DNA of 39,701 bases from Rikenellaceae bacterium DTU049 (GCA_001513285.1 LFTI01000102.1:1-39701), one strand, 5' to 3'. Shown: positions 16,131 to 38,215, counted from the stretch's first letter. Numbers and translations: made by a program. The notes: generated from the sequence alone by a model not told the origin.

Positions 16131-16165
16131 TTATTTTTTTATGTAAAATTAATAATAAATTTTTA

Positions 16166-16246
16166 GTTTTATAACGTTTATTATGGGTAAATTATTTTAA
16201 ATATTCAATTTTTTGATTAATCCACAAATGCACACAAATGAGCACA
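16166..16246. repeat. Repeat family copy 1 (partial): left end plus one arm of the CACAAAT-type core
   Basis: agttttataacgtttattatgggtaaattatttt...ttaatccacaaatgcacacaaatgagcacaaat; no matching right end found. Confidence 0.7.
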
Positions 16247-16258
16247 AATAATAAATTC

Positions 16259-16320
16259 ACCCCGTGAGATATATAGTAAATTATATATTAAAAGTAAAAT
16301 AACTATTTATCTCACGGGGT
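16259..16320. repeat. 62-bp hairpin element with CCCCGTGAGAT arms
   Basis: accccgtgagatatatagt / actatttatctcacggggt, 18 of 19 bp paired, 24-nt AT-only-rich loop. Confidence 0.8.
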
Positions 16321-16352
16321 AAATCCCAAAATCCTTTAATCCCAAAAATCCC
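16321..16352. repeat. Short-period ATCC repeat
   Basis: aaATCCcaaaATCCtttaATCCcaaaaATCCc, four ATCC units spaced 8, 8 and 9 nt. Confidence 0.6.
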
Positions 16353-16395
16353 AGTTCAGACAATAAAAAGTAGATTATTAACCCTGACCTTAGTA

Positions 16396-16989
16396 CTATT
16401 TTATAATATCTGATTTTATTTTGTCGAAATCTATTATAATTTTGTCTATAAATGCAAAAAAATCATTTTCAATTTCTGTATAATACTCTTCTAATATTTC
16501 AATAGAATTTGTTAAATTAGCTTCAAAAGAAGCACGTGTATCCATCCATTCAAATATATGTTTTAGTCCAGATAAGTCTTTGTACATCATTAGCCAATTA
16601 TTTTTTATCATATGGTCGACTGCTCTTTTAGCTTTATTTGGTAAAATATTATAATTATTATTTAAAATAATATAGAACTCATCTATTGTATTAATTAATG
16701 TTTTTTTAGAAAATTTTTCCCAATTATTTGCCATGAAATGGTCATAAATTACATCTATAGCCACTGGTGCATAATGTTTTAGTGATGGACTAAATATAGA
16801 AATAGATTTTTTAACAATTATATTATTATCAGAATAATTATCAATCCATTGATGAAGTTTAATGCCAGATTGTATTTGAGGCGGATATTCTTTTATTCTA
16901 TTAATGCCTCTAATGTAATCTGCTATAAAATTTCCCAAAATTATATTTTCATCATTTTGTGAAAAAAATAAGTGGATTAAAATATTCAT
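16396..16989 (-). CDS. Acyl-carrier-protein phosphodiesterase (AcpH-like)
   Basis: MNILIHLFFSQNDENIILGNFIADYIRG; IQSGIKLHQWIDNYSD; VAIDVIYDHFMANNW. Confidence 0.85.
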   Translation of the reverse strand: MNILIHLFFSQNDENIILGNFIADYIRGINRIKEYPPQIQSGIKLHQWIDNYSDNNIIVKKSISIFSPSLKHYAPVAIDVIYDHFMANNWEKFSKKTLINTIDEFYIILNNNYNILPNKAKRAVDHMIKNNWLMMYKDLSGLKHIFEWMDTRASFEANLTNSIEILEEYYTEIENDFFAFIDKIIIDFDKIKSDIIK

Positions 16990-17054
16990 TTTTTTTACTT
17001 CATAAGCAAATTTAATATAATTTTTTCAATTTTGCAATATTTCTAATAAATTAA

Positions 17055-17272
17055 TGGTTCTATAATGTTTATTTTGGGTAAATTATTTTACCACAAAGAA
17101 CACAAAGATGTTACACAAAGTTCACAAAGTTTCATTTATATGCCTTTTAATTTTATCATTCTCTGTGTTCTTTGTGAATTCTTTGAGAACTTTGTGGTTA
17201 ATATTTAATTGTCCAATAATAAATAAAATTACTCTCTTTTAATCTTTACCCACTCAAAACGTTATATAACCT
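17055..17272. repeat. Repeat family copy 2: imperfect TIRs around an inverted CACAAAG-type core
   Basis: Left end tggttctataatgtttattttgggtaaa; right end RC aaggttatataacgttttgagtgggtaaa; core accacaaagaacacaaag...ttctttgagaactttgtggtt. Confidence 0.85.
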
Positions 17273-17727
17273 TAAAAATCTTTGTTTTTAGTATCCATAA
17301 TTATTGTAACAGGTCCATCATTCACTAGGTCTATTTGCATATTTGCTCCAAAAATTCCTTTAAATATTATTTTATTGAAACAATTTTGTAAAATTTCAAG
17401 AAATGTGTTGTAATATTTTTCACCAATTTCATAAGAAGCTGCACGTGAGAAAGATGGCCGATTACCTTTTTTAGTCCAAGCATACAATGTAAATTGGCTA
17501 ACAACTAAAATATCACCATTGATATCTGCAACTGATAAATTCATTAATCCATCAGAGTCATTAAATATACGTAAATTAATAATTTTATTAGCTAACCATT
17601 GCATATCTGCAGTAGTCTCTTCTTCTTCAAAACCAACAAGTAATAATAAGCCTTGATTTATAGAACTAATTACATCATTATTAACCTTGACAGCAGCACT
17701 GTTGACACGTTGAATGACTACTCGCAT
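17272..17727 (-). CDS. dtd: D-aminoacyl-tRNA deacylase
   Basis: MRVVIQRVNSAAVKV, LVVSQFTLYAWTKKGNRPSFSRAA, GIFGANMQIDLVNDGPVTIIMDTK. Confidence 0.95.
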   Translation of the reverse strand: MRVVIQRVNSAAVKVNNDVISSINQGLLLLVGFEEEETTADMQWLANKIINLRIFNDSDGLMNLSVADINGDILVVSQFTLYAWTKKGNRPSFSRAASYEIGEKYYNTFLEILQNCFNKIIFKGIFGANMQIDLVNDGPVTIIMDTKNKDF

Positions 17728-17729
17728 AT

Positions 17730-18731
17730 TTATTTTTCATTATATATCAAATATGCTAAAACATTGCCTACGGCAGCCAAGGTATTTTTATCTATTTTGT
17801 CTATATCATCGCCCATTGTATGCCAGTAAGGATAAAAACCTGTTGAGCTATTTTTATCTTGATGAACTATATTGATAGTAGGGATGTTTGCAATAGTATT
17901 TAGATACAAATGATCATCAGTAATAGGCGCTGCATTTTCTGGGATGAAATATTTATTATAACCTAATTTAGCCGCAATATCCCAAACTTTTTTTAATATT
18001 GATGGTGCATATTCATTAGAAATACCTTCATAATAAAAAGTGGCATCACTAGCTCCAACCATGTCTAGAAGAATCCCATAATTGGCATTATAATTAAAAG
18101 GTACTTTATTTCTACTCCAATATTGGCTACCAAGACACCAAAATTCACCATTTTTAGTTTGTACACTTCGAGGTTCCCCCCAATCTTCTATATCCCAAAG
18201 AGCAATATCTATGCCGATAGATGGCGGATTTTCGTTGAGCAAATTTGCTAATTCTAACAAGATGCCCACACCTGATGCACCATCATTAGCTCCTGGAATA
18301 GGTGAATTGTGATTATTAGGATCAGGATCATAATCTGCATAGGGACGACTATCCCAATGAGCAGAGAGTAAAATTCTTTTTTTAAGAGTTGGATTAAACT
18401 GTGCTATAATGTTTTTACCTTCTTTGACTTCACCAGAATAAATGCGAGTTTTAAAAGTTTGCACATATACAGTGTCTGCCAAACTATCTAATTTGTTTAT
18501 TAACCAATTACCACAGAGATCATGAGCATTAGTACCAGCCACTCTAGGACCAAAAGAAACTTGTTTAGCTATATATTCATAAGCTCTATCAGCATTAAAA
18601 GTTGGTACTTTAATTTCAGTTTTTTGCTGTGTATCCGTACCTTTATCAATATTTTTTTTGCAACTTTCTAAAAATAAAGCTGAAAAAAACAATAATATTA
18701 TAAAACTTTGTATTAATCTTCTATTTCCCAT
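17730..18731 (-). CDS. M28-family metallopeptidase / glutaminyl cyclase-like lipoprotein
   Basis: Lipobox FLESC; FGPRVAGTNAHD, LLSAHWDSRPYAD, GANDGASGVGILLELA, NIVHQDK...YWHTMGDDIDKID. Confidence 0.85.
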   Translation of the reverse strand: MGNRRLIQSFIILLFFSALFLESCKKNIDKGTDTQQKTEIKVPTFNADRAYEYIAKQVSFGPRVAGTNAHDLCGNWLINKLDSLADTVYVQTFKTRIYSGEVKEGKNIIAQFNPTLKKRILLSAHWDSRPYADYDPDPNNHNSPIPGANDGASGVGILLELANLLNENPPSIGIDIALWDIEDWGEPRSVQTKNGEFWCLGSQYWSRNKVPFNYNANYGILLDMVGASDATFYYEGISNEYAPSILKKVWDIAAKLGYNKYFIPENAAPITDDHLYLNTIANIPTINIVHQDKNSSTGFYPYWHTMGDDIDKIDKNTLAAVGNVLAYLIYNEK

Positions 18732-20185
18732 GTATATTTATCTTTATTATCATTAACAACGACACCCAAATTTTTTAAACGACTCCTTATTTCATCAGCC
18801 AAAATATAATTTTTTTGCTGTTTTAATTGTGTTCTAATATCTAAAATTAATTCAATAAAAGGAGCAATATCATGTGTATTTTGAGATTTTTCTAACTTAA
18901 GACCTAAAATATTTTCGATAAAAATATTTTTCATCCAATGTAGTATTTCAATATCATTATTATCTAAATTAATTTTTTGTTCATAAGCCAAATTGATAAT
19001 TTTAACTGCTTCGAAAAGATTAGCAATAGCTATAGGAGTGTTTAGGTCATCATTTAAAGCATCTAAAATCTTGTTTTTAATTTCAAATAAATTTGAATTA
19101 GAAATCTCTACATTTGAAGATAATTTATCAATTTTATTAAAAGCTTTTGATAATCTATCTAATCCACTTTCAGCAGCTTTCAAGGCTTCATTAGAAAAAT
19201 CTAGAGGACTTCTATAATGAGCTTGTAAAATAAAAAACCTAACAACCATTGGTGAGAAAGCATTTTCTAGAGCTGGATGAGTACCATTGAAAAGTTGCTC
19301 GAGAGTAATAAAATTATTGAGACTTTTGCTCATTTTTTGTCCATTGATAGTGATTAGATTATTATGTACCCAGTATTTAACAGGTTGCACGCCTTTAGCA
19401 GCAACAGATTGAGCTATTTCGCACTCATGATGAGGGAATTGTAAATCTAAACCACCGCCATGAATATCAAATGGCACTCCAAGATATTTAGCACCCATTA
19501 CAGAACACTCTAGATGCCAACCAGGAAAACCTTTGCTCCAAGGAGAATTCCACTGCATGATATGCTGTGGAGATGATTTTTTCCACAAAGCAAAGTCATA
19601 AGGACTTCTTTTCTCTTCTTTACCTTGCAATTCTCTAGTATGAGCTAATAGATCTTCTAATTTACGACCACTTAAAATGCCATATAAATTAGTATCATTT
19701 TGATATTTAACAACATCAAAATATACTGAACCATTAGAAATATAAGCATATCCATTATTTAGAATTTCTTGGATTAATTCAATTTGTTCAGGTATATGAC
19801 CTGAAGCAAAAGGCTCGATAGAAGGAGGCAAAGTATTGAGCATATCTAAAGCTTGATGATATCTACGAGTAAAGTAATTTACTATTTCCATTGGTTCTAA
19901 CTGTTCTAGACGAGCTTTTTTTTGAATTTTATCTTCACCTTCATCAGCATCATTTTCTAAATGTCCTACATCTGTAATATTGCGAACATAGCGCACTTTA
20001 TAACCTAGTTCTTTCAAATATCTAAATAAAACATCAAAAATTATAGCAGGACGAGCATGTCCTAGATGTGGATCACCATAAACAGTGGGGCCACAAACAT
20101 AAAGACCCACAAAAGGCTCATTAATAGGGACAAATTGTTCTACTTTTTTAGAAAGACTATTGTATAAATGAAGTGGATGATTCAT
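18713..20185 (-). CDS. cysS: Cysteinyl-tRNA synthetase
   Basis: VCGPTVYGDPHLGHARPAI (HIGH), GGLDLQFPHHECEIAQS, QKMSKSLNN (KMSKS). Confidence 0.96.
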   Translation of the reverse strand: MNHPLHLYNSLSKKVEQFVPINEPFVGLYVCGPTVYGDPHLGHARPAIIFDVLFRYLKELGYKVRYVRNITDVGHLENDADEGEDKIQKKARLEQLEPMEIVNYFTRRYHQALDMLNTLPPSIEPFASGHIPEQIELIQEILNNGYAYISNGSVYFDVVKYQNDTNLYGILSGRKLEDLLAHTRELQGKEEKRSPYDFALWKKSSPQHIMQWNSPWSKGFPGWHLECSVMGAKYLGVPFDIHGGGLDLQFPHHECEIAQSVAAKGVQPVKYWVHNNLITINGQKMSKSLNNFITLEQLFNGTHPALENAFSPMVVRFFILQAHYRSPLDFSNEALKAAESGLDRLSKAFNKIDKLSSNVEISNSNLFEIKNKILDALNDDLNTPIAIANLFEAVKIINLAYEQKINLDNNDIEILHWMKNIFIENILGLKLEKSQNTHDIAPFIELILDIRTQLKQQKNYILADEIRSRLKNLGVVVNDNKDKYTWEIED

Positions 20186-20263
20186 AAAAATTACAAATTT
20201 TTTTCGAAATTAACAGAAAAAAATGAAATGATGAAAAAGTGTAAATAATGAAATACAAAATTT

Positions 20264-20490
20264 TGGTTCTATAACGTTTATTGTGGTTATATTATTTTAC
20301 TACAAAGAGCACAAAGATATTACACAAAGTTCACAAAGTTTCATTTTTAAGCTTTTTAATTCTATCATTCTCTGTGTTCTTTGTGCCTTCTTTGAGAACT
20401 TTGTGGTTAATATTTAATTGTCTAATAATAAAATACATTTTTATAAAATTATTTTTTTAATTTTTACCTATATAAAACGTTATAGAACCA
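20264..20490. repeat. Repeat family copy 3: perfect 16-bp terminal inverted repeats around an inverted CACAAAG-type core
   Basis: tggttctataacgttt...aaacgttatagaacca; interior closely similar to copy 2. Confidence 0.9.
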
Positions 20491-20514
20491 TTTTTAATTT
20501 TAAAAATCATAGTT

Positions 20515-21321
20515 TTATTCTATTTCAGTAAAATCTAGCTCGCTACCTAGTAAACTATGTGGTATGAAATATATTAAAATTTGTATAGCTGATGCCACTA
20601 GAATCCATGTTTTATAATGAGCTTTATTTTTTCTCATTTGCCAAATAGCTATAATCCAAAATATCAGTGATATCAGTGTTTTAGTATCAGTGAGATCATT
20701 ACCTACTGGCCAGCCTGTCCAGTATGCACCGAATGCGTATTTCTGCACTATTGGTCCTAATATAATTCCTCCAAGCAAAATGGAAATAAAAGCTCCATAA
20801 ACAAAATTGTGCAACTGTTTTTCTCTATTAAAAATTACAAAAAATATTGAACCTATGGCGAAAAATATAGATAAAAACATTAACAAAATATGAGGTATTA
20901 AAACATATGCTGGGACAGGATCTTTGTATCTCAATATCACATGTTTCCCTTTATTATTTAGAATTATTTGTTTATCATGATCCTTTAGTACAACCTCATA
21001 GATCATTTTTCCAGCTGCTGGTAATTGTGGTAGTGAGCCTATCAACTTGCCATTTTCGTATTTCATAGTCTGTATTTGCCAATCATCATTACTTTTGAAT
21101 CTTTTGTAAATAAGAAGACCATTAGCTGTCGTATCTCCTACTTCTATCACTATCTCAGCATTATTATTAGTATCTGCGCTGCGAGGAAGCTCATATTTAA
21201 TTTCATTTCCTTTATAATACACTTTGTCGTTTACTGGATTGGTAGGTCCAGTAATTCTTTGGAAATAAGCTATAGCACATGCAAAAATTATAGAAATAAT
21301 ATAAATAATCCAATTTCTCAT
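20515..21321 (-). CDS. Conserved multi-TM membrane protein, function unknown (internal start MRNWIIY preferred over 21360)
   Basis: N-terminal TM, soluble segment, then 4 TM helices with FGAYWTGWPVGNDLTDTKT. Confidence 0.7.
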   Translation of the reverse strand: MRNWIIYIISIIFACAIAYFQRITGPTNPVNDKVYYKGNEIKYELPRSADTNNNAEIVIEVGDTTANGLLIYKRFKSNDDWQIQTMKYENGKLIGSLPQLPAAGKMIYEVVLKDHDKQIILNNKGKHVILRYKDPVPAYVLIPHILLMFLSIFFAIGSIFFVIFNREKQLHNFVYGAFISILLGGIILGPIVQKYAFGAYWTGWPVGNDLTDTKTLISLIFWIIAIWQMRKNKAHYKTWILVASAIQILIYFIPHSLLGSELDFTEIE

Positions 21322-21343
21322 ATTAAAACAATTTATTTTGATA

Positions 21344-23443
21344 TTAAAAATCCATACCAAGATTAAACATCATAAAAGCAAAAACATCTGTTACCTCATC
21401 TATTACTTTAGACATTGGTTTGCCACCACCATGACCTGCTTCAGTTTCTATTCTTATCAAAACAGGATTATTACCAGTTTGTTTTTCTTGTAAAGTAGCA
21501 ATAAATTTAAATGAATGAGCGGGCACTACTCTATCATCGTGATCAGCAGTAGTTACTAAAGTAGCAGGATATTCTACACCTTCACGAATATTATGAAGTG
21601 GAGAATAAGCATATAAATATTTAAAATCTTCAGGATTATCGCTACTGCCATAATCTCCTACCCATGCCCAGCCAATTGTGAATTTATGATAACGTAGCAT
21701 GTCCATCACACCTACAGCAGGCAGAGCTACTTTAAATAAATCTGGTCTCTGAGTCATCACTGCACCAACTAATAATCCACCATTAGAGCCACCATTTATA
21801 GCTAATTTAGATGGTGAAGTATAATTATGTGAGATTAAATATTCTGCAGCAGCAATAAAATCATCAAAAACATTTTGTTTTCTCTCTTTTGTACCTGCTT
21901 CATGCCATTCTTTGCCATATTCTCCACCACCACGTATATTGGGCACAGCATAAATACCACCTTTTTCTAAAAAAGGAATTATTTTTGTGCTAAATGTCGG
22001 CAATACACTAATATTGAAGCCACCATATCCATATAGCAATGTAGGATTATTCCCATCCAATTTAATATCCTTTTTATGTGTTATAAACATTGGAATTTTT
22101 GTACCATCTTTTGATGTGTAAAATACCTGTTCAGTGATATAATTGTCTGGATTAAAATTTAATGATGTTTTGAAAAATTCTGTTAGTGTTTTGGCATCTG
22201 CATTATATTTAAAAATAGTAGGTGGATATATATATGAAGTAAAAGTAAAATAAATATTATTATGCTCATAATATGTACTAACACCTGTAACTGTCCCCAT
22301 TGCTGGTATTTCAATTTCATTCAATATTTTACCCGTTTTATCAGCTAAATACATTTTACTTTTCACATCTACTTGATAATGAATCACCCAATAGTCTTTA
22401 GTAGCAGATATGCCATTTAAAACATTTTTGCTCTCATTAATAACTGTTTCTATTGTGAATGGTTGTTTATCTAAAGCTACTTTGATCAATTTATAATTAG
22501 GAGCATTATCATTTGTCATAAAATAAGCTACATTGTCAATAATATCTACTAGAGAATAATCATTTTCGAAACCGCTAAATAGTAATTGGAAACTATTATT
22601 TTTGATTGGCAATTTAGATACATATAATTGCAGACCACTGGTAGCCTCAGTTTCATATAAAAAAGCATATTTTTCATTTCTATCAGTTTGGATAACGTAA
22701 TTTCTTAGAGGATAATCATTATTCTCATAGATTAATTTATCTTTTTGCTGTGTAGTTCCTATCTTATGATAATAAACTTTGTGATATTCATTTTTTGCTG
22801 TTAGAGCTTTAGAACTGTCTTTGATTTCATAACCACTATAAAAGAATCCATCTTTATACCAAGCAATATTAGTAAACTTAGCCCATTTGATATGATCTGG
22901 TAGTAATCGCATTGCAATCATGTCAAAAACAAAAATTTCTACCCAATCGCTGCCAGCTTTTGAAATACCATAAGCTAGATATTTATTGTCAGGAGAAAAA
23001 GATAAAGCACTTAATGAAGTTGTACCCTTGGCATCCCATTGATTAGGATCTAAAATTACACGTTTTACGCCAGATTTAATATCTTTTTGGTAGAACACAC
23101 TTTGATTTTGCAAACCTGTATTTTTGAAATAATATATTTTATCTTGTCTTTCGGATGGCGTACCCATACGTTCGTAATTCCATATTTCTTCATAATATTT
23201 TCTTAGTTTTTCTCTAAAAGGAATTTTTTCTAAATATGAAAAAGTGAGTTTATTTTGCTCTTGTATCCACTGTTTTGTTTCTGGACTGTTTTCGTCTTCT
23301 AACCATCGATATGGATCAGCCACCATCGTACCATGGTAATTTTCTACAATATCTACTTTTTTAGTTTTAGGATATTGCAACTGTTGTGCATTAATTATAT
23401 TCATAGTTATTAACATTAAAACAAGGAAAATAATTTTTTTCAT
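21344..23443 (-). CDS. Secreted prolyl oligopeptidase (S9A)
   Basis: Signal peptide; DPYRWLEDENSPETKQWIQEQN, NGGSNGGLLVGAVMTQRPDLF, DHDDRVVPAHSFK, EAGHGGGKP. Confidence 0.94.
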   Translation of the reverse strand: MKKIIFLVLMLITMNIINAQQLQYPKTKKVDIVENYHGTMVADPYRWLEDENSPETKQWIQEQNKLTFSYLEKIPFREKLRKYYEEIWNYERMGTPSERQDKIYYFKNTGLQNQSVFYQKDIKSGVKRVILDPNQWDAKGTTSLSALSFSPDNKYLAYGISKAGSDWVEIFVFDMIAMRLLPDHIKWAKFTNIAWYKDGFFYSGYEIKDSSKALTAKNEYHKVYYHKIGTTQQKDKLIYENNDYPLRNYVIQTDRNEKYAFLYETEATSGLQLYVSKLPIKNNSFQLLFSGFENDYSLVDIIDNVAYFMTNDNAPNYKLIKVALDKQPFTIETVINESKNVLNGISATKDYWVIHYQVDVKSKMYLADKTGKILNEIEIPAMGTVTGVSTYYEHNNIYFTFTSYIYPPTIFKYNADAKTLTEFFKTSLNFNPDNYITEQVFYTSKDGTKIPMFITHKKDIKLDGNNPTLLYGYGGFNISVLPTFSTKIIPFLEKGGIYAVPNIRGGGEYGKEWHEAGTKERKQNVFDDFIAAAEYLISHNYTSPSKLAINGGSNGGLLVGAVMTQRPDLFKVALPAVGVMDMLRYHKFTIGWAWVGDYGSSDNPEDFKYLYAYSPLHNIREGVEYPATLVTTADHDDRVVPAHSFKFIATLQEKQTGNNPVLIRIETEAGHGGGKPMSKVIDEVTDVFAFMMFNLGMDF

Positions 23444-23730
23444 AGTTTTTTTTACAAATATAAGTTAAAATTTAGTAAGTTATTATATTTATTAACTTAT
23501 ATACCTAAAAATAAAATTTTCCTTATAAAACATTTCAAAATATTTATAAAAAAGAAAAAATGTTATATAAAAATTTTTCATAAATTTGTATTAATAAAAA
23601 ATATTATTATCAATGATATATAGGAGCTTAACAAAAAAACTTTTAAAATAGTCTAAAATAATATAAAAATTTTTTATTTGTAAAAAAATTAATAACTTTA
23701 CAAAAAACCAAGAAAAAAAACGTATTTGTA

Positions 23731-25959
23731 ATGGAAAGTGAAACTATCGGAACAAAGAATATAACAAGAGAAGACATCTATCATGTGCTAAAGACTGTAT
23801 TTGGTTATGATAATTTCAAACTATATCAGGAAGAGATCATTAATAGTTTGCTAAATGGTAAAGATACTTTTGTAGTGATGCCTACTGGTGGAGGTAAATC
23901 TCTTACTTATCAATTACCAGCATTATTATGTGAAGGAACAGCAATAATCATTTCTCCTTTATTAGCATTAATGAAAAATCAAGTAGATATTATCAGAAAT
24001 ATTTATGCTGATGACAAAATAGCACATATGCTTAATAGTACTTTGCCACGTAGAGAACTAAAACAAATATTTGAAGATCTATCTAGTGGTAAAACTAAAA
24101 TGCTTTTTATAGCTCCAGAATCATTAAAAAAAGAATCTTATACAGAATTTTTCAAAAATTTGCATATATCTTTTTTTGCTGTCGATGAGGCACATTGCAT
24201 CTCTGAGTGGGGGCATGATTTCAGACCAGAATATCGAATGATCAGACCAATGATAGATACCATAGGCCAAGATGTACCTGTCATTTCTCTCACTGCTACA
24301 GCTACTCCTAAAGTACAAGAAGATATTATTAAAAATTTAAAATTAATAAATCCAAATATTTATATTTCTAGTTTTAATAGACCAAATCTATATTATGAGG
24401 TGAGACCTAAAACTAAAAATATTAATAAAGAATTGATACAATTAGTGAGAGAAAGAGAAGGTAAAAGTGGCATAATTTATTGTATGATGAGAAAAACTAC
24501 TGAAAAAATAGCAGAAATGTTACAAGCTAATGGTTTCAACGCATTACCATATCATGCTGGCCTGAGTGGAGCTGTGAGACGTCAAACGCAAGACTTATTT
24601 TTAAGACAAGATATAGACATTATAGTAGCTACAATAGCTTTTGGCATGGGAATTGATAAACCTGATATCAGATTCATTATTCATTATGACATGCCCAAAA
24701 GCCTGGAAGCATATTATCAAGAGACGGGGCGTGCGGGCAGAGATGGTGGTGAAGGTGATTGTATTGCTTTTTATAATGAAGATGATTTAATTAAGTTTAA
24801 TAAAATGGAGCAAAATAATCGTGGTGTCGCTGAAAAAGAAATTTCTGACTTGATAATGTATGAGACTATTTCTTATGCAGAGAGTACTATCTGTAGAAGA
24901 AAATCGCTTTTGCACTATTTCGGTGAAGATTATAAAGAAGATAATTGCCATAGCTGCGATAATTGTATATATCCTAAAACACAGTTTGATGCAAAAAAAG
25001 AAATTTTAACAGTTTTGAAAGCTATCGATGAGACCAAAGAGCAGTACAAAGCTAAAATGATTGTGAAAATTCTTATAGGTAATGACAAAGATAAAGCTTC
25101 ATTGAAACATTTCAAAGCTGAAAAACTGAAAAGTTATGGTGCTGGTGCAGAAAACGACGAAAAATTTTGGAATTCAATTATTAGACAAATATTAATTTTG
25201 AATTTTTTAATGAAAGATATCAATAATTATGGTGTCTTAAAAATAACAGATAAAGGAAGAGAATTTTTAACAAATCCGAAAAGTATTATGCTTACAAGAG
25301 ATAGAGATTTTTCTGATGATTATGAGGGTTTAGATGACGAAATGAAGATGAAAGGTGGTTCTGGCGCTGATACTATATTGCTTAAAATGCTTAAAGATCT
25401 TCGCAATCAAATAGCAAAACAAAATAATCTACCACCATTTGTCATCTTTCAAGATCCCTCATTAGAGGAAATGACTATACAATATCCTATTACACTGGAT
25501 GAATTGCAAAATATTACTGGTGTAGGTGTAGGAAAAGCTCAAAAGTATGGTCAGCCTTTTGTAGATCTGATAAAGCAATATGTAGATGAGAATGAAATAG
25601 AACGTCCTAATGATATTATCATTAGGTCATCTGCCAATACTTCTAGTCTTAAAATATTTATTATTCAAAGCATCGATCGTAAAATCCCACTAGATGAAAT
25701 AGCAAATGCCAAAAATTTAACTTTTGAAGAATTACTCGATCAAATCGATAAAATCGTTGCTAGTGGTATACGAATTGATATAGATTATTTCATCGATGAA
25801 GTCATAGATCCTTATCATCAGGAAGAGATTTATGATTATTTCAGAACTGCTAGCACAGATGACATTCAGCAAGCTCTTGAGGAACTTGGTGAAAATGAAT
25901 ATACTGAAGAAGAAATTCGTCTAATGCGCATAAAATTTATCTCAGAAATGGGTAATTAA
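23731..25959 (+). CDS. recQ: ATP-dependent DNA helicase RecQ
   Basis: VMPTGGGKSLTYQLPAL, FAVDEAHCISEWGHDFRPEY, QETGRAGRDG, C-terminal zinc-binding, WH and HRDC-like regions. Confidence 0.95.
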   Translation: MESETIGTKNITREDIYHVLKTVFGYDNFKLYQEEIINSLLNGKDTFVVMPTGGGKSLTYQLPALLCEGTAIIISPLLALMKNQVDIIRNIYADDKIAHMLNSTLPRRELKQIFEDLSSGKTKMLFIAPESLKKESYTEFFKNLHISFFAVDEAHCISEWGHDFRPEYRMIRPMIDTIGQDVPVISLTATATPKVQEDIIKNLKLINPNIYISSFNRPNLYYEVRPKTKNINKELIQLVREREGKSGIIYCMMRKTTEKIAEMLQANGFNALPYHAGLSGAVRRQTQDLFLRQDIDIIVATIAFGMGIDKPDIRFIIHYDMPKSLEAYYQETGRAGRDGGEGDCIAFYNEDDLIKFNKMEQNNRGVAEKEISDLIMYETISYAESTICRRKSLLHYFGEDYKEDNCHSCDNCIYPKTQFDAKKEILTVLKAIDETKEQYKAKMIVKILIGNDKDKASLKHFKAEKLKSYGAGAENDEKFWNSIIRQILILNFLMKDINNYGVLKITDKGREFLTNPKSIMLTRDRDFSDDYEGLDDEMKMKGGSGADTILLKMLKDLRNQIAKQNNLPPFVIFQDPSLEEMTIQYPITLDELQNITGVGVGKAQKYGQPFVDLIKQYVDENEIERPNDIIIRSSANTSSLKIFIIQSIDRKIPLDEIANAKNLTFEELLDQIDKIVASGIRIDIDYFIDEVIDPYHQEEIYDYFRTASTDDIQQALEELGENEYTEEEIRLMRIKFISEMGN

Positions 25960-25990
25960 TTTCTAATAACATTATTAAAAAAATAAAATT

Positions 25991-27096: not shown

Positions 27097-27102
27097 TTTA
27101 CA

Positions 27103-27684: not shown

Positions 27685-27727
27685 TTCTTATACATTAAAT
27701 AAATTTAACTAATTAAAACTTTGTAAA

Positions 27728-29113: not shown

Positions 29114-29332
29114 TATCAATTTTTAAATTTTCATTTTAAACTATGAATTAGGAATTTTTTAACATTGTTAATTCATTACAAAGTATATATTTATTATTAC
29201 AACTTTTACAATTAATGAATTAAAGAAAAAAATCTATACTGATGTTAAAACTTCTGTCTCGATTTCACTTATACAAATGGGCGTCATAATGGTTAAAAAA
29301 CTAAGCAAAAATGAATGAAAATAGTAGAAAGA

Positions 29333-30598
29333 TTAAATATTTCTTACAATAGCATTAGCATATGAATACCAAGATTTTTCTTGAGCAATTTTATCTATAT
29401 TTGTTCTATCAATGGGCTGCTTAATAATTTTGTTCATAGCTTCTGCCATAGAATGTATATCATGAGCATCTGCTAGATAGCCATTTACACCATTAATAAT
29501 AGTCTCGGGGAAATGTCCGACAGCAGTAGCTATGATTGGAATTCTAAAATTATATGCCATAGATTCTACACCAGAGGGAGTAGCATATTCATAAAACAAA
29601 ACAATAGCATCACTTACCTGAAAATATTTATATACTTCTTCATTTGGCACATATTCTATTACAGATACTACTTTGTCTTGTATGCCTAATTCAGTTATCA
29701 ACTCTAGTGGACGATAATTATCTTCACTTTCAGTATTTTTTCTGAAAATGCTTTGAGCAATATTAAAAATCCACTTTTTGGCTCTTGTAGTCCATTTTTT
29801 CTTATCTAAAGTAGACCAAAAAGCTTCACCTACAATCAGTAAGGAGACATCGTTTCGCTCTTTTGCTAATTCTGCAAAAGCCTTTATAGCATTATGTAAG
29901 CCTTTATATTTGCGAATAAATCCAAAAAATAGAAATACATATTTTCGCAATCCTAGTTCATTTTTGAAAGCTTCTACATCAAAATTTTCATTAGGCTTAA
30001 ACATGTCATAGATAGGATGATAGAGATGTATCACTTGTGAATTTTTATTTTTAGGATCAAATTCAGAAACTAAATTAAGTTGCCTATTGTGTAAAACATC
30101 ACAAAGTTCATCGTAAGTTTTTTTAGAATGAACAATAAAATGAGGGACATGCTTGAGAGCAAATTTGGTAAAAAATTTGTCTAATGAACTGCTCTCTTTT
30201 TGCACCACAAAATGGAGATCAAAAATTATATTTATATTAGAATGTTTTTTTAACCACGTAACAATATATTTCAGTGGTAATCCCTGCAGAGCAATAGACC
30301 ATTGAAAAATAGCTACATCTGGATTAATGTCTTTAATAAGTTTAGCAGTTTTTGTCCAACTAAAAGGATTATTGTAATTAGTCAGATAATGTACTTTGAT
30401 ATCAGTGTCTTTGATAGCATTGTATCTACTTTTTCTGTCAATAAAATCGCGTGGTATAATAGAGGGATATTGATTTGTCCATGAAACTATATGTACCTCT
30501 GAGTTGTCAAATTCGCTAAAAGCTTTTGATAGAGATGTATTATAATTAGCTAGTCCTCCTTTAAATTGAGGACCAGGACCGAAACAAACTATCCTCAT
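29333..30598 (-). CDS. Glycosyltransferase family 4-like
   Basis: GPGPQFKGGLANYNTSLSKAF; LFFGFIRKYKGLHNAIKAF; ATPSGVESMAYNFRIPIIAT. Confidence 0.87.
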   Translation of the reverse strand: MRIVCFGPGPQFKGGLANYNTSLSKAFSEFDNSEVHIVSWTNQYPSIIPRDFIDRKSRYNAIKDTDIKVHYLTNYNNPFSWTKTAKLIKDINPDVAIFQWSIALQGLPLKYIVTWLKKHSNINIIFDLHFVVQKESSSLDKFFTKFALKHVPHFIVHSKKTYDELCDVLHNRQLNLVSEFDPKNKNSQVIHLYHPIYDMFKPNENFDVEAFKNELGLRKYVFLFFGFIRKYKGLHNAIKAFAELAKERNDVSLLIVGEAFWSTLDKKKWTTRAKKWIFNIAQSIFRKNTESEDNYRPLELITELGIQDKVVSVIEYVPNEEVYKYFQVSDAIVLFYEYATPSGVESMAYNFRIPIIATAVGHFPETIINGVNGYLADAHDIHSMAEAMNKIIKQPIDRTNIDKIAQEKSWYSYANAIVRNI

Positions 30599-30603
30599 AA
30601 AAA

Positions 30604-31659
30604 TTATTTATTTTGATTTAATTTATCTAATTGTGCTTTATAAACTCTATACATACCCTCTTCTAAGCTAATTTTTGGACGCCAATCGAAGGTAGAAAAT
30701 ACTTTAGTCATATCCGCATAGCGAGAATGGACCCCCATAGGTTTATCTATTAGTGGCTTAATAGTAGGTTTATAACCAGCAAATTTACTAAATAAGTCTA
30801 TTATCTCTAAAAATGATGTAAGTTTACCTGAACCGATATTCCATCCTGAGCCATCTTGCACATTATCCATTAAAACAAAAATAAAATCGATAATATCATC
30901 AATATGAATAAAATCTCGAGCTTGCTTGCCAGTGCCCCATACAACAAAAGGATTTTCTTTAGCAGCAGCACGAGCAGCTAAGGCAGGTACTGGATAACTG
31001 AGATCTTGATCTTCGCCATAACCACTAAATGGTCTGATACATACTACTTTGAGTCCATAATGTTTAGCAGCTATCTTTGCTAAAAATTCACCAGTAAGTT
31101 TTGACCAACCGTAGGTCATATCTGGCACACCGATACGTAATGAATCAAAATCGATATATTCTTCTTTGAGAGCTAGAGCAGTATCCTCAGTTTGCAAATC
31201 TACAGGATATGCAGCACTACTACTAGGATAGAGAAGTCTATCAGGCATATTACGTACTGCCCAATAAAATAGTTCAGCATCAATAGATAGATCTAATCCC
31301 ACTTGTATAGGATCTCCATCTATTTTCATTCGTCCACCAACTATTGCTGCAAAATGGAATACATCTGAAAATTTATCAAAATCTAATTTGTAAGTATCTT
31401 GAATATATCTAGGATTTTCTCGAAAATTAAAGAGCAATTCTCTTAAATCACCTTTCCAGAAATAAACTCTTTTATCAGGATCTAAAACTTCTAAACCATT
31501 ATAATCGGATGGATGATAATTTGTGAACCATTCTCTTGGATGAATGCCGATGCTTAAGTCATCAACCATAAAAATATGATCTGTAGTAGTGGTGTACAGC
31601 CTTTTAACCATATTTCTACCTACAAATCCACATGCTCCAGTTACAAGATTTATTTTCAT
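30604..31659 (-). CDS. NAD-dependent epimerase/dehydratase (extended SDR)
   Basis: VTGACGFVGRNMVKRL, YPSSSAAYP, YGWSKLTGE, RDFIHIDDII, NIGSGKLTSF. Confidence 0.9.
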   Translation of the reverse strand: MKINLVTGACGFVGRNMVKRLYTTTTDHIFMVDDLSIGIHPREWFTNYHPSDYNGLEVLDPDKRVYFWKGDLRELLFNFRENPRYIQDTYKLDFDKFSDVFHFAAIVGGRMKIDGDPIQVGLDLSIDAELFYWAVRNMPDRLLYPSSSAAYPVDLQTEDTALALKEEYIDFDSLRIGVPDMTYGWSKLTGEFLAKIAAKHYGLKVVCIRPFSGYGEDQDLSYPVPALAARAAAKENPFVVWGTGKQARDFIHIDDIIDFIFVLMDNVQDGSGWNIGSGKLTSFLEIIDLFSKFAGYKPTIKPLIDKPMGVHSRYADMTKVFSTFDWRPKISLEEGMYRVYKAQLDKLNQNK

Positions 31660-31865
31660 ATTATTTTAATTTTTAGCAAATTTACTTTAATTTATTTAAA
31701 GGAAATTATAATTTTTTTAAATGTTAGTGAATTATAGTTAATTTTCTAGTTTATTACTAGAATGAGTATATTTTTTTGAATATAATATAAAAAATGATTT
31801 AGCTCCAACCTTTCTTACATTTTTTTAAATTGTTTTTACTCTTCTTTTTGTAATTTTACAAAAAA

Positions 31866-32717
31866 ATGACTTTAGGTGAAGCTAAGAAAATTTTAAATGA
31901 GTTCATACCTAAGTATTACTATTCTGATTCTGTAGAACCTTTAGTAAGAGATTTATTAATGTATATTCTAGATATAAGCAAAATAGAATATTTATGCTTA
32001 ACTTCTAATTATATTTTGACTAATGATGAATTATTAAAATTTGAAGATGTAATCAAGCAATTAAAAGATGAAAAACCTATACAATATATTTTAGGCGAGG
32101 TAGATTTTTTAGATTTTAAATTTCAAGTAAACGAAAATGTCCTAATTCCTAGACCTGAAACAGAACAACTTGTATTATTAGCAAAAAAAATTTTAGATTC
32201 GGATAGTTATGTTCCAAATACAATTGTAGATATCGGAACTGGTAGTGGATGTATAGCTATAGCTATGAAAAAATTGTTTCCCAAAAGTAATGTTTTCGGT
32301 ATTGATATATCAAAAGCTGCTATTGATTTAGCACAAAATAATGCTCATAAATATGAATTGAATGTGGAGTTTTATCAATTAGATATTTTAAAGGATGATT
32401 TTAATTTGTTTAATTATGATGTACTCATAAGTAATCCTCCTTATGTTTTAGAATATGAAAAAAATGAAATGAATGATAATGTAACTAGGTGGGAACCTCA
32501 TTTAGCTCTTTTTGTGCCTAATGATGATCCTATAATTTTTTATAAAAAGCTAATTACTAATTTTTTTGAAAATAGAATGTCAAAATTTGCTTTTTTTGAG
32601 ATTAATCCATTGAGTTATAATTTATTAGTTGATTTTTTAAATAGTTATTCATTGTTTTCATATTCTTTTTTTAATGATTACAAAGGTGAAATAAGGTATT
32701 TAGTTATAAAAAAATAA
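31866..32717 (+). CDS. prmC: Release factor glutamine methyltransferase
   Basis: PIQYILGEVDFLDFKFQVNENVLIPRPETEQLV, VDIGTGSGCIAIAM, ISNPPYV. Confidence 0.93.
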   Translation: MTLGEAKKILNEFIPKYYYSDSVEPLVRDLLMYILDISKIEYLCLTSNYILTNDELLKFEDVIKQLKDEKPIQYILGEVDFLDFKFQVNENVLIPRPETEQLVLLAKKILDSDSYVPNTIVDIGTGSGCIAIAMKKLFPKSNVFGIDISKAAIDLAQNNAHKYELNVEFYQLDILKDDFNLFNYDVLISNPPYVLEYEKNEMNDNVTRWEPHLALFVPNDDPIIFYKKLITNFFENRMSKFAFFEINPLSYNLLVDFLNSYSLFSYSFFNDYKGEIRYLVIKK

Positions 32718-32742
32718 AGGGGTTCATTTTGCGAACCCCTTT
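32716..32742. terminator. Terminator hairpin overlapping the prmC stop codon
   Basis: aaaggggttc-attttgc-gaaccccttt between convergent prmC and hsp20. Confidence 0.85.
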
Positions 32743-32769
32743 ACTTCCTGCCATTTGCAAGCAATTTTA

Positions 32770-33207
32770 TTATTTAATTTTAATTTCTTTACCTTTCTTT
32801 TCGATTCTTTCTTTTATTTTAGGTAGATTGAGATACAAGATACCATCTTTATATTCAGCTTCTATTTTGTCTTTATCGATATAATCTGGTACTATAAAGC
32901 TTCTGCTAAAGCTTTGATAGTTAAATTCTCTACGTCTGTAGCGTTTGTCTTTTTCTTCTTTTTCCTGTGACTTTTCAGTGTAGATAGTTAAAACATCATT
33001 GTCTAGAGATACTTTGAAATCATCTTTATTAAAGCCAGGAGCAGCTACTTCTATTTGAAATTTATTCTCATCTTCGCTTACATTAACAGCAGGTGCATTA
33101 AATTGTTCAGGCATATAAAAGAATTCTTTTAAAAAATCATCACCAAAAAATTCATCAATTATTCTTGGCAGGAAGTTTTCACTTCTGGATGCAGGTAATA
33201 ATGCCAT
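32770..33207 (-). CDS. Hsp20/alpha-crystallin small heat shock protein
   Basis: PAVNVSEDENKFQIEVAAPGFNKDDFKVSLDNDVLTI; FSRSFIVPDYIDKDKIEAEYKDGILYLNLPK. Confidence 0.95.
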   Translation of the reverse strand: MALLPASRSENFLPRIIDEFFGDDFLKEFFYMPEQFNAPAVNVSEDENKFQIEVAAPGFNKDDFKVSLDNDVLTIYTEKSQEKEEKDKRYRRREFNYQSFSRSFIVPDYIDKDKIEAEYKDGILYLNLPKIKERIEKKGKEIKIK

Positions 33208-33215
33208 ATTTTTCT

Positions 33216-33225
33216 CCTCCTTTCT
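33216..33225 (-). promoter_or_regulatory. Extended Shine-Dalgarno site for hsp20
   Basis: mRNA sense AGAAAGGAGG, 8 nt before ATG. Confidence 0.75.
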
Positions 33226-33458
33226 TTTTTTATTTCTATTTATTCAATATCAATTTTTATACCAGTGGATTTTTTATTAGTTATAATTTATTGATTTACT
33301 TTAATTTATGTTTGAATTTTAGAATTAATTACTGCCAAAATGACATTAATTTTGTTTGTTTTTAAAATATTATGCTAATTTGACATACTAAAATCATTTA
33401 ATACATATCGAATGTAGAGATAATAAACTATGAGATATAATCTATATAAAGTAAACTT

Positions 33459-34820
33459 TTATAATTTATTATTTTTTAATAATTCATCAATATTTAGTTG
33501 CCAATTATCGAAATTGCCACTACTCATCAGGAGTATCACAGCTGGAAACTTAATGTTTTTATTAATATAATTTTGAATTTCATTAATATCTGTAGTTACA
33601 AACAAATTAGGATGATCAAAAGCTGCCAGTACATCATCAGTAGATAAATCTGGTAATTGTTTTAAAGTAATGGCGTGTTTACTATAAAAAACTATTGGAA
33701 GATCAGCATTTACTAATGAATTTCGGTATTGAGGAATAAAAATTTTATTTAAACTGGAGTAGGTATGTAATTCAAAAACTGAGATAAGTTGCCTATCTGG
33801 ATAACGTTCTTTGACAGCATTTATTGTAGCTTTCACCTTTGATGGTGCATGAGCAAAATCTCTATAAATTAATAATTTGTCATTTTCAAAATATTTTTCT
33901 AATCTTTTTTCGGCAGATTTATAGCTCATCATAGCTTGGCAGAAAGATTTAGTGTCTATTCCCAGATACTCACAAACGCAGTGAGCAGCTGCGATATTTT
34001 GCATATTATGTTTCCCGAAAATTTGCAAAGGGAATAATTCTCCTAAATAATTTAAATAAAAGATACCTTTATTTACGACATATGAGAAAGTAGAATAATA
34101 TTGAGGAGAAACATTCAAATTAGTATTGTCTAAAATGCTATGTACAGTAGGTTCATCTACGGCAAATAGAGCACCGTCCGCAGGAATAATTTCTGCAAAT
34201 TTTTTAAATTGTTCTAAATATATATCTAAGGTAGGAAAAACATTAGCATGATCCCAATCTATACCATTTATTATGCCTATATTTGGTCTATAAACTAAAA
34301 ATTTGGGGATAGGGAGCTCTGCACTAGCCAAATATTCATCACCTTCGATAATGATAAAAGGTGCATCACTGCTTAATTTTACATTATATTCAAAGCCATT
34401 CACTTTAGATCCTACTAAATAGTCAAAAGACATATTTAAGTAATTACATATATGCATTATCATTCCAGTTACAGAGGTTTTGCCATGACTACCACCAATG
34501 ACTATTCTTATTTTATTTTTAGAATGTTCATAAATAAATTCTGGTAATGATAAAATTTTGATGCCAAGTTCTTTTGCTTTATGCAATTCAGGATTATCTG
34601 CTCTAGCATGCATCCCTGAGATAATCAAATCAATATCTGGAGAAATATTTTCTGACCAAAACCCAATATATTGAGGTAATAAATTATATTTTTTTAAGTT
34701 ATCTTTTGCGGGATTAAAAATTTCATCATCAGAGCCGCTAACAACATGTCCTGCTTGCTGTAGAGCAATTGCCAATTGATGCATTACTGCGCCACCTATA
34801 GCTATTATATGTATTCTCAT
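33459..34820 (-). CDS. mpl: UDP-N-acetylmuramate:L-alanyl-gamma-D-glutamyl-meso-diaminopimelate ligase
   Basis: MRIHIIAIGGAVMHQLAIALQQAGHVVSGSDDEIF, GGSHGKTSVTGMI, EGDEYLAS, YRDFAHAPSKVKATI. Confidence 0.92.
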   Translation of the reverse strand: MRIHIIAIGGAVMHQLAIALQQAGHVVSGSDDEIFNPAKDNLKKYNLLPQYIGFWSENISPDIDLIISGMHARADNPELHKAKELGIKILSLPEFIYEHSKNKIRIVIGGSHGKTSVTGMIMHICNYLNMSFDYLVGSKVNGFEYNVKLSSDAPFIIIEGDEYLASAELPIPKFLVYRPNIGIINGIDWDHANVFPTLDIYLEQFKKFAEIIPADGALFAVDEPTVHSILDNTNLNVSPQYYSTFSYVVNKGIFYLNYLGELFPLQIFGKHNMQNIAAAHCVCEYLGIDTKSFCQAMMSYKSAEKRLEKYFENDKLLIYRDFAHAPSKVKATINAVKERYPDRQLISVFELHTYSSLNKIFIPQYRNSLVNADLPIVFYSKHAITLKQLPDLSTDDVLAAFDHPNLFVTTDINEIQNYINKNIKFPAVILLMSSGNFDNWQLNIDELLKNNKL

Positions 34821-34847
34821 AAATTATCTATTTTTTTAGTATAGTAT

Positions 34848-35834
34848 TTAAGAATCTAATTTCACATTTAAATAATTTAGATAAGATTTTACTAAATCAA
34901 GCGGGTACAATTGATAGCTTTGATTAGCTAATTCTAAAGATTTATCCAATTGCCCCATAAATTCGTAGATTATAGCCAAGTTGTAAAGAGCTTTTGCTAG
35001 TATTATTTTATCATTTTCATTATCAATACCAATATTAATATATTTTTCATAAATTGCTTTAGCATTATCAATATCTTCGATTTTGAGTAATTTAAAAGCT
35101 TTTTTAAAATCTTTATTTGTATTAGTATATATGCCTCTCACTGTTGTCATTTGAGGTGGAGAAAGTTGCTTAATGACACTTCGTGCAAATGAATATCCCC
35201 AATCTACTGTGAAGTCTTGAGTTTTGAAAATATTTTTCAATGCTTCAGCTTTTGTGTTACCAGTAGCATTAAAAATAGGTTCCTGCGAAAAATCAAAATG
35301 TCGAACTGATCCATTTCTATCATAAATGCGCATAATAGCTCTGAAAACTCCTTTTCGTGAAGCATAATAAATAGTTGTACCACCATAATCTATAGAAGTT
35401 TCTTGCCTGTTTTCCTGAATATTATTATCAAAAAAAGCTTTAAAATAATCTAGGGTGATTAACCAACAAGCATTATTGTTGTTCAAAATATATTGAGCAG
35501 TATCAGCACTCAATGTATCATCCAGATTATTAATATTTGCAATGGGCAATTCTATTAATTCTACATCAAAATTTAATTTTTTTAAAGTATCCAATAAAAA
35601 ATTAATCGTAGCTATAGATCCCTGTCTCTCTAAGCCTCTGAAAAGGTAGTCTAAGGACTCAACCTGCTCTAAATCTTTGTCTTTTGTAATCCTATTGGCT
35701 ATAAGAAATTTTTTTGTTGTACAATTATCATCAGATAAATAAAATTGTGAAGAACGCTCCCATTTATAATATTTCACTTCTGTACATGACAATAAAAAAA
35801 CAAATGCAAAGAAAATAAAGTATTTGAATTTCAT
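34848..35834 (-). CDS. Conserved Bacteroidota lipoprotein with C-terminal TPR-like region (possibly DUF6340-like)
   Basis: Lipobox LLSC; KFLIANR; ALYNLAIIYEFMGQLDKSLELANQSYQLYP. Confidence 0.6.
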   Translation of the reverse strand: MKFKYFIFFAFVFLLSCTEVKYYKWERSSQFYLSDDNCTTKKFLIANRITKDKDLEQVESLDYLFRGLERQGSIATINFLLDTLKKLNFDVELIELPIANINNLDDTLSADTAQYILNNNNACWLITLDYFKAFFDNNIQENRQETSIDYGGTTIYYASRKGVFRAIMRIYDRNGSVRHFDFSQEPIFNATGNTKAEALKNIFKTQDFTVDWGYSFARSVIKQLSPPQMTTVRGIYTNTNKDFKKAFKLLKIEDIDNAKAIYEKYINIGIDNENDKIILAKALYNLAIIYEFMGQLDKSLELANQSYQLYPLDLVKSYLNYLNVKLDS

Positions 35835-36153
35835 TTTTATAAGTTATTTCGTTCAAAATTATTAAAATAATTAAATATATCTATGTTTAAATTTAAAATA
35901 TGAAATATGGTAAAACCTGATCACGAATAAATTTTGTTTTTACAAAAATACTAAATTTTATATCAGTTAAATTGCATTTTATTACTATTATTTGACTGAA
36001 ATATAGTCTCATGATAATTTTATTAAGTTGATTAATTATTTTTTCAGAAGATTTTTTTAATATCTTCTAGATGCTGCTATTATATTTATCATTTGTAAAG
36101 ATTATTATAGATACTTAATATAATTTTGCAAAAATCAATATTAATATAATATT

Positions 36154-37797
36154 ATGAGTAAAAAAGTTGTAATTATAGGTGGAGTAGCAGGTGGAGCCTC
36201 TACTGCAGCTAGATTGAGAAGATTAGATGAGAATACAGAAATCAAAATTTTCGAACGTGGTAAATATATCTCGTATGCTAATTGCGGATTACCATATTAT
36301 GTAGGGAATATTATTAAAGAAAGAGACTCATTGCTTGTGCAGACAACTCAAAAAATGAAAAAAAGATTTAATATTGATATTTATACTTTGCATGAAGTCC
36401 TTAAAATAGATAGAGCAAATAAATCATTAATAATTAAAAATTTACAAACTAATGAAATTTTTCAAGAAACTTATGATATTTTAGTTTTATCTAGTGGAGC
36501 CGAACCTATTAAGCCGCCAATAAAAGGAATAGACACTGCTAAGAATGTTTTTAACCTTCGTGATATTCCTGATGCAGATAAAATAAAAAATTTCATAGAA
36601 ACTAAAAATCCTAAAAAAGCTATAGTCATTGGTGGTGGATTTATTGGCATAGAGATAGCAGATAATTTGTTTGCAAGAGGTCTAAACGTTACACTTGTAG
36701 AAAAGGCCGACCAGATTTTAGTCCAATTAGATAAAGAAATGGCTACTATTTTACATAAACATATAATAGACAAAGGAATAGAATTAATCTTATCTGATAG
36801 TGTAGAAGAATTTAAAAATAATGGAACTACATTAGTGCTTAATAGCGGCAAACAAATAGATTCAGATCTTACAATTTTATCTATTGGCGTTAAACCAGAA
36901 AGTAATTTAGCTAAAGATGCGGGATTAGACATAGGTATCACTGGAGGAGTACAAGTAAACGAATATTTACAAACTTCAGATGAAAGTATTTATGCTATCG
37001 GTGATGTGATAGAAGTGAGAGATTTCATAACTGGATTGCCTGCATTAAAGCCATTAGCTGGTCCGGCAAATAAACAAGGCAGAATAGTAGCTAATAATAT
37101 TTGTGGGAAAAATGAAAAATACTTAGGTACTATAGGCACCTCAGTAGTCAAGGTTTTTGATATGACAGCAGCCTCAATAGGTAATAATGAAAAAATGTTA
37201 AAAAATGCAGGAATTTCTTATGAAACTGTACATATTTCGCCACCTTCTCATGCAACTTATTATCCAGGAGCAACCACTATTTTTATGAAATTAATTTTTG
37301 ATAAAAATAATGGTAAAATATATGGTGCTCAAGCCGTAGGATATGATGGAGTAGACAAAAGAATAGATGTGCTATCGACTGCTATTAGGGGAGGTATGAC
37401 TGTGATGGATTTGCAATATTTGGAATTAGCTTATGCACCTCCTTTCTCATCAGCTAAAGATCCTGTAAATATGCTTGGTTATGTAGCTACTAATGTGATA
37501 GATGGTGATTTAGAAATAATTTATTGTGATGAATTTATTAATTTGAAAAAGGATAATGTAGTTATAGTAGATGTATGTGAACCTATAGAGAGAGTAGAAG
37601 GCTACATAGATGGTTCTATAAATATTCCTCTGAATGATTTGAGAAATAGATTAGATGAGCTACCTAAAGATAAAATGATTTATGTCTATTGCCAGCAAGG
37701 CTTGAGATCTTATATAGCTTATAGAATTTTGAAACAAAATGGTTTTAACGTTAGAAGTCTTGATGGTGGATACAGATTCTATCTTAATTACATTTAA
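36154..37797 (+). CDS. CoA-disulfide reductase-type FAD/NAD oxidoreductase with C-terminal rhodanese domain
   Basis: IIGGVAGGASTAARLRRLDE, SYANCGLPYYVG redox Cys, AIGDVIEV; C-terminal VDVCEPIERVEGYIDGSINIPL...VYCQQGLRSYIAYRIL. Confidence 0.93.
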   Translation: MSKKVVIIGGVAGGASTAARLRRLDENTEIKIFERGKYISYANCGLPYYVGNIIKERDSLLVQTTQKMKKRFNIDIYTLHEVLKIDRANKSLIIKNLQTNEIFQETYDILVLSSGAEPIKPPIKGIDTAKNVFNLRDIPDADKIKNFIETKNPKKAIVIGGGFIGIEIADNLFARGLNVTLVEKADQILVQLDKEMATILHKHIIDKGIELILSDSVEEFKNNGTTLVLNSGKQIDSDLTILSIGVKPESNLAKDAGLDIGITGGVQVNEYLQTSDESIYAIGDVIEVRDFITGLPALKPLAGPANKQGRIVANNICGKNEKYLGTIGTSVVKVFDMTAASIGNNEKMLKNAGISYETVHISPPSHATYYPGATTIFMKLIFDKNNGKIYGAQAVGYDGVDKRIDVLSTAIRGGMTVMDLQYLELAYAPPFSSAKDPVNMLGYVATNVIDGDLEIIYCDEFINLKKDNVVIVDVCEPIERVEGYIDGSINIPLNDLRNRLDELPKDKMIYVYCQQGLRSYIAYRILKQNGFNVRSLDGGYRFYLNYI

Positions 37798-37849
37798 TGT
37801 AATTTTTCAAATTTTCTAAAACTTTTATTTTTAAATATTTTGACAGTTA

Positions 37850-38215
37850 AATATTAACCACAAAGTTCTCAAAGAATTTACAAAGAACACAGAGAATAAT
37901 AGAATTAAAAGGCTGAAAAATAGTACTTTGTGAACTTTGTGTAATATCTTGGTGCTCTTTGTATGCATTTGTGGATTAATAAATATCTAGCCCACAATGT
38001 TTATAATTTCATCCACAGATTTACACAAATTAACACTAATGATTTAGTTTTCTGAGTGCTTTTGTAAATTAAATTACTAATATCTTGTTAAAATAATCAA
38101 CTCCTCAACTAATCAACATATATCTTTAATTTGTGCTCATTTGTGTGAATTTGTGGACAATAATAACAATTGGAAAATTAAAAATAATTAACCCACAATA
38201 AACATTATAGAACCA
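37850..38215. repeat. Repeat family copy 4 (inverted relative to copies 1-3): CACAAAG-type and CACAAAT-type cores in tandem, one clear terminal repeat
   Basis: Right end acccacaataaacattatagaacca; CACAAAG core approx 37855-37962; CACAAAT core 38011-38157. Confidence 0.85.

Follow-up and report, generated by a model that had tools for sequence, protein, structure and literature searches.

Four intergenic repeats in the 39,701-nt stretch of DNA from Rikenellaceae bacterium DTU049 that was analysed here (the window) are very probably MITEs with IS1595-type ends, which are moved in trans by an IS1595-family transposase and whose interior descends from a nuclease module. The MITE itself is of a standard kind; the new part is the origin of its interior, a nuclease gene that the preliminary description of these repeats overlooked.

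Structure and mobility of the repeats

All four previously described copies were found on reading the window, and their limits were refined as follows.

Copy 1, 16165..16364 (right limit approximate), plus strand: one-ended, only the left end AGTTTTATAACGTTT kept
Interior of copy 1: type II iterons (CACAAATG-type) at about 16220-16248, then two more palindromic modules; right end lost
Copy 2, 17056..17271, plus strand: 216 bp, both ends, type I iteron arms, tail codons of a GxxExxY ORF on the minus strand
Copy 3, 20265..20489, plus strand: 225 bp, perfect inverted ends, type I iteron arms
Left terminal inverted repeat of copy 3, 20265..20279, plus strand: GGTTCTATAACGTTT
Right terminal inverted repeat of copy 3, 20475..20489, minus strand: exact reverse complement of the left
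Copy 4, about 37811..38214, minus strand: left end degenerate, right end clear
Interior of copy 4: type I arms with ORF tail at 37853-37963, then a type II iteron section at about 37964-38160

The outer ends of the element are GGTTCTATAACGTTT..AAACGTTATAGAACC. The perfect inverted ends of copy 3, the single clear ends of copy 1 (left) and copy 4 (right), and the direct contact of copy 2 with the stop codon of a minus-strand gene (17272) are all as first reported. Copy 3 forms a long hairpin on folding (z = -6.5).

Several copies contain additional modules. A separate palindrome, ACCCCGTGAGATAA..TTATCTCACGGGGT, occupies positions 16255-16324 of the window within copy 1 and is also present in the loop of other copies (L028, L030), indicating that further small palindromic elements are nested in the MITEs. 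Another module, AATCCCAAAATCCTTTAATCCCAAAAATC..GTTCAGACAA (window 16322-16364), takes the place of half of the interior in several MITE copies (L022, L023, L024, L026, and L027), and L017 and L021 have in common an insert, tcatcctgttaaatgcaaagcaattccgcttatgcggaat, at the same arm position after the type I arm.

A search of the strain's own genome assembly (G000; 1.54 Mb, 64% complete) with copy 3 gave 55 BLAST matches and revealed dozens of copies with the same ends. The 15-bp end, with at most two mismatches, matches G000 at 110 sites (55 + 55), whereas the reversed-sequence control gives 24 (13 + 11), leaving approximately 43 end pairs above background; chance similarity of AT-rich ends is ruled out by this control. 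Three of the congeners (G003, G004, and G005) are comparable in copy number and G001 has fewer copies. In the sampled genera outside the genus only short matches were obtained, mostly to the iteron part, and none of these genera yielded a full-length copy.

Insertion leaves a duplication of constant length. Among 90 paired-end elements extracted from G000, G003, G004, and G005 (median length 242 bp), the identity between left and right flanks peaks sharply at 8 bp (0.683, versus a maximum of 0.519 in 300 partner permutations), and perfect 8-bp target duplications flank 16 of 65 copies against 0.49 expected. The target duplication sought for these repeats is thus present at the level of the family but absent from the window copies, none of which has kept a clean 8-bp duplication, and this counts against the MITE reading. 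Insertion polymorphism was observed at three of the window sites: that of copy 1 is filled in G000 and G005 and empty in G001, G002, and G004; that of copy 2 is filled in G000 and G004 and empty beside the same gene end in G001, G002, and G005; and that of copy 3 is filled in G000 and G005, with the left junction uninterrupted in G001 and G004.

Full-length elements with the same ends and an IS1595-family transposase gene between them were found in two congeners. Element L284 of G001 carries a 330-aa transposase gene within these ends and is flanked by a perfect duplication, AATTAAAT, and L283, also in G001, is a second transposase element with the same ends. Three 1.5-kb elements of G003 with these ends encode a transposase of 332-336 aa, and one of them (L236) has a perfect duplication, AAAAAAAT. 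The G003 transposase was assigned to the IS1595 family by profile search (NF033547, E = 1.2e-35; NF050000; PF12762, E = 1.6e-8; zinc-binding domain), and the G001 transposases are its homologues at approximately 50% identity. Since the G003 transposase unit is enclosed by two partial copies of the MITE, and since these ends are missing from most other copies of the transposase, the 1.5-kb elements are composites, and we rejected them as the simple parent IS; L284 and L283 of G001 make better candidates for an autonomous element. In the 64% complete assembly of G000, no transposase gene bounded by these ends was found, a further point against the MITE reading.

IS1595-type transposase genes as such are abundant in the genus. 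One is situated in the window itself (8308-9300; 335-349 aa) and is among 63 matches in G000, and the congener genomes contain between 39 and 140 matches each, fragments included. Most of these genes in G000-G005 are without the GGTTC ends, and several are closely bounded by an inner inverted repeat, e.g., TGTTATACTTTA..TAAAGTATAACA.

The duplication at L284, L236, and the MITEs has the 8-bp length that is typical of IS1595 (PMC8101967, PMC12561309). Together with the IS1595 match of the transposase that shares the ends, this makes the assignment of the window repeats to IS1595-type MITEs well supported. As a family they are short and non-coding, have terminal inverted repeats, occur in many copies with a constant-length duplication and insertion polymorphism, and have an autonomous partner in congeners. 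The earlier interpretation as a non-autonomous element is hence borne out by the further copies, the empty orthologous sites, the 8-bp duplications, and the transposase-bearing elements with the same ends. The transposase probably acts in trans on the window copies.

Origin of the repeat interior

A search of G000 with PF13366 identified a gene inside a repeat copy (G000:C73:34152-34502). The complete element is 579 bp long and consists of an end, an iteron arm, a 126-aa GxxExxY ORF, a second iteron arm, and the other end. A sub-family of approximately 242-273 bp retains the ORF start and the codons for INFN..LLKDGIK, and in the commonest class (approximately 216-232 bp), which includes copies 2-4, only the last codons (IKR..) are left and run into the arm. 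The full ORF in one copy and partial ORFs in the shorter ones identify the MITEs as internal-deletion derivatives of a nuclease-carrying element. The repeats had been described as encoding no protein; they are indeed non-coding now, but they do have a coding history, since the final codons of the GxxExxY nuclease gene survive in copies 2, 3, and 4.

A second, different GxxExxY subtype was found in a 922-bp element of G005, where it lies between CACAAAT-type arms; remains of arms of this type, like those of the second subtype, are present in window copies 1 and 4. Both cargo ORFs are clear GxxExxY members (TIGR04256; PF13366, PDDEXK_3, a PD-(D/E)XK nuclease), with profile scores of 128 bits against a cut-off of 22 (Pfam) and 132 against 35 (NCBIfam), and the PD-(D/E)XK residues D67, E77, K79, Q91, and Y95 are kept in 96-100% of 136 proteins. 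The structure model of the nuclease, with a pLDDT of 55, is too weak to draw on, and PDB sequence searches with the protein returned nothing meaningful. At L031 (1858-1869) and at type I GxxExxY loci, the end of the ORF, made up of its last codons and the stop, runs up to or into the first iteron downstream, GGCACTTTGTGA; gene and arm therefore share sequence.

We propose that the ancestral element would have carried the GxxExxY PD-(D/E)XK ORF tightly between inverted iteron arrays (ACCACAAAG-NN-CACAAAG..). Successive internal deletions would then have removed the ORF, shortening the element from 579 bp to approximately 242-273 bp and further to approximately 216-232 bp, and the iteron arms left behind could fold as a long hairpin. 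An IS1595-family DDE transposase would move the resulting GGTTCTATAACGTTT-ended non-autonomous elements in trans, inserting them into AT-rich intergenic DNA and duplicating 8 bp.

The nuclease module and its iterons outside the MITEs

The iteron palindromes also exist without IS1595-type ends. Mucilaginibacter genomes contain arrays of up to 4 + 4 units, with neither gene nor IS ends, a short distance behind stop codons, and Mucilaginibacter psychrotolerans has 44 iteron sites, mostly gene-less where read, so that gene-less palindromes far outnumber gene-flanking ones of the same sequence. At four loci of this species (L327, L338, L339, and L341), back-to-back iteron palindromes lie inside different MITE-like ends, GAGGCTGTATCATAAAT..TGATACAGC, from which it follows that more than one kind of MITE has taken up the arms. 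At one Mucilaginibacter site, a GxxExxY module lacking IS ends has arrived recently: it lies between two genes of M. psychrotolerans that in 21 related genomes are only 12-224 bp apart with no module between them, one of the 21 having an iteron hairpin without the gene at this position. We infer that gain and loss of the nuclease module take place without IS1595 ends; a target duplication could not be defined for the module by itself.

Two further observations concern such sites. The intergenic site of the L066 GxxExxY module contains unrelated CCTCTCCAAAGGAGAGG-kind palindromes in other Mucilaginibacter species (L351 and L360) and thus collects several kinds of palindromic elements. Iteron pairs were also seen in regular steps of approximately 177-240 bp (G228:C1:2706624-2707355; G261:C4:188927-189478; G260:C2:72-517), which suggests tandem amplification.

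These findings bear on the possibility that the main agent of the repeats' spread is the GxxExxY nuclease, through its action on the iteron palindromes, in the manner of REPINs and RAYTs, the IS1595-type ends being secondary baggage. The occurrence of the palindromes with and without the gene in many genera that lack these ends, the newly arrived Mucilaginibacter module, and the unfailing agreement of protein clade and iteron dialect documented below all speak for such spread; within the repeats' own genus, however, the target duplication is placed precisely outside the GGTTC ends and has the IS1595 value of 8 bp, and G003, which is 97% complete and rich in copies, lacks a GxxExxY gene. We therefore regard it as very improbable for the window repeats and retain the movement of IS1595-type MITEs by their transposase.

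Could the GxxExxY ORF instead have been a chance passenger of one IS1595 element, with no special tie to the palindromic arms? Own-genus genomes contain the gene in one copy or none, and IS1595 elements with extra genes are known. We nevertheless think this very unlikely, since GxxExxY ORFs have these same arms around them across many genera and in several phyla. We collected 80 nuclease relatives from genome contigs with one query, and they are hence mutually related; they come mainly from Bacteroidota, with further representatives in Ignavibacteria, Planctomycetota, Neomarinimicrobiota, and Cloacimonadota. In most of them the ORF is set between inverted arms. There are 2.8 copies of the unit CRCWRAG per 200 bp upstream and 3.3, inverted, downstream, versus 0.07 in control stretches taken from these loci, i.e., the 7-bp units are 40- to 50-fold enriched within 200 bp of GxxExxY ORFs. 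None of the 77 testable loci is without a unit, and at 58 of them there are at least two per side in the right orientation. The spacing of the units is mostly 9 bp, and the downstream arm often starts a few bases past the stop codon. A second set of loci, obtained with the family profile and with the other subtype, gave the same picture. Across whole genomes, 101 of the 198 Bacteroidota sampled have the family (PF13366), comprising 58 of the 63 with an iteron pair and 43 of the 135 without (odds ratio 25, p = 2e-16).

The arms also differ in sequence with the enzyme that they flank. Protein clade and iteron dialect match at all 116 classifiable loci (first subtype with CRCNRAG, n = 86; second with CRCNRAT, n = 30), 22 loci with too few units having been left out of this classification. 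The split holds for loci that the first query did not retrieve (11 + 30, p = 3e-10), and the two arms of a locus agree in dialect (rho = 0.82, p = 9e-18). As the dialect changes once on the tree, these matches reflect faithful co-inheritance over a deep divergence and not repeated independent change. Plasmids and phages were rejected as vehicles, nuclease relatives being found in only 7 of 72,556 plasmid records and in none of 50,697 phage records.

In the arms at GxxExxY loci, G.U pairs (217) are no more frequent than A.C pairs (223), and both strands fold equally well, which favours recognition as DNA over recognition as RNA; a structured RNA was rejected on this lack of strand asymmetry and on an Rfam search at the repeats, in which no family matched. 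A transcript-end or 3'-UTR RNA element conserved by selection, the alternative raised in the preliminary description, can be dismissed as scarcely credible: the copies do adjoin stop codons and fold strongly, but such an element predicts none of the further copies, empty orthologous sites in congeners, target duplications, and transposase-bearing elements, and it is at odds with the same Rfam result and pair counts. A later terminator role of inserted repeats is possible.

The nuclease, to go by these patterns, presumably recognises its iteron arms as DNA, and it would most likely bind and cut its own iteron palindromes, much as RAYT enzymes relate to REPINs. We tentatively suggest, with confidence a little short of even, that GxxExxY and its iterons may constitute an unrecognised, multi-phylum, REPIN-like kind of mobile DNA, in which the nuclease would recognise its own CRCNRA(G/T) dialect and spread or maintain both itself and gene-less palindromes, while unrelated MITEs, such as those of the window, would in turn capture the palindromes.

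Comparison with known systems

The pairing ties the CACAAAG-type palindromes of many Bacteroidota and beyond to an enzyme family annotated only as 'GxxExxY protein', and it gives this widespread, uncharacterised nuclease family a concrete, testable role. It also offers a source for a class of intergenic repeats. Our literature search found no description of the repeat, nor of flanking iteron palindromes or gene-less derivatives for the GxxExxY family, which is no proof of novelty.

The intervening sequences of 23S rRNA that contain the ORF of the S23 protein (e.g., PMC4990558) resemble the nuclease module in that they form a long hairpin with a small ORF in its loop. The protein fold is a different one, however, and the module is located outside rRNA genes and shows no RNA strand asymmetry in its arms.

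The window repeats share with IS1595 and its derived MITEs (PMC8101967; Siguier et al., 2009, cited in PMC12561309) the transposase family and ends starting with GG, as well as AT-rich 8-bp duplications, intergenic insertion, and short non-coding derivatives. In contrast to those MITEs, what has been deleted from their interior is not a transposase gene; it is a nuclease module, which has iteron palindromes of its own, so that selfish DNA is nested here two deep, with the palindromes of a nuclease inside IS1595-type MITEs.

REPINs and their RAYT (TnpA-REP) enzymes differ from the GxxExxY system in several respects: RAYTs are HUH Y1 transposases, whereas the enzyme here is a PD-(D/E)XK nuclease (PF13366); REPINs consist of single REPs with a GTAG tag, whereas the arms here are arrays of 7-bp units; and movement driven by the GxxExxY nuclease is putative. 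The two systems nonetheless have the same overall organization, with many gene-less palindromes, a few endonuclease genes flanked by the same palindromes, and a location of the palindromes mostly at gene ends (PMC3116915, PMC8266576).
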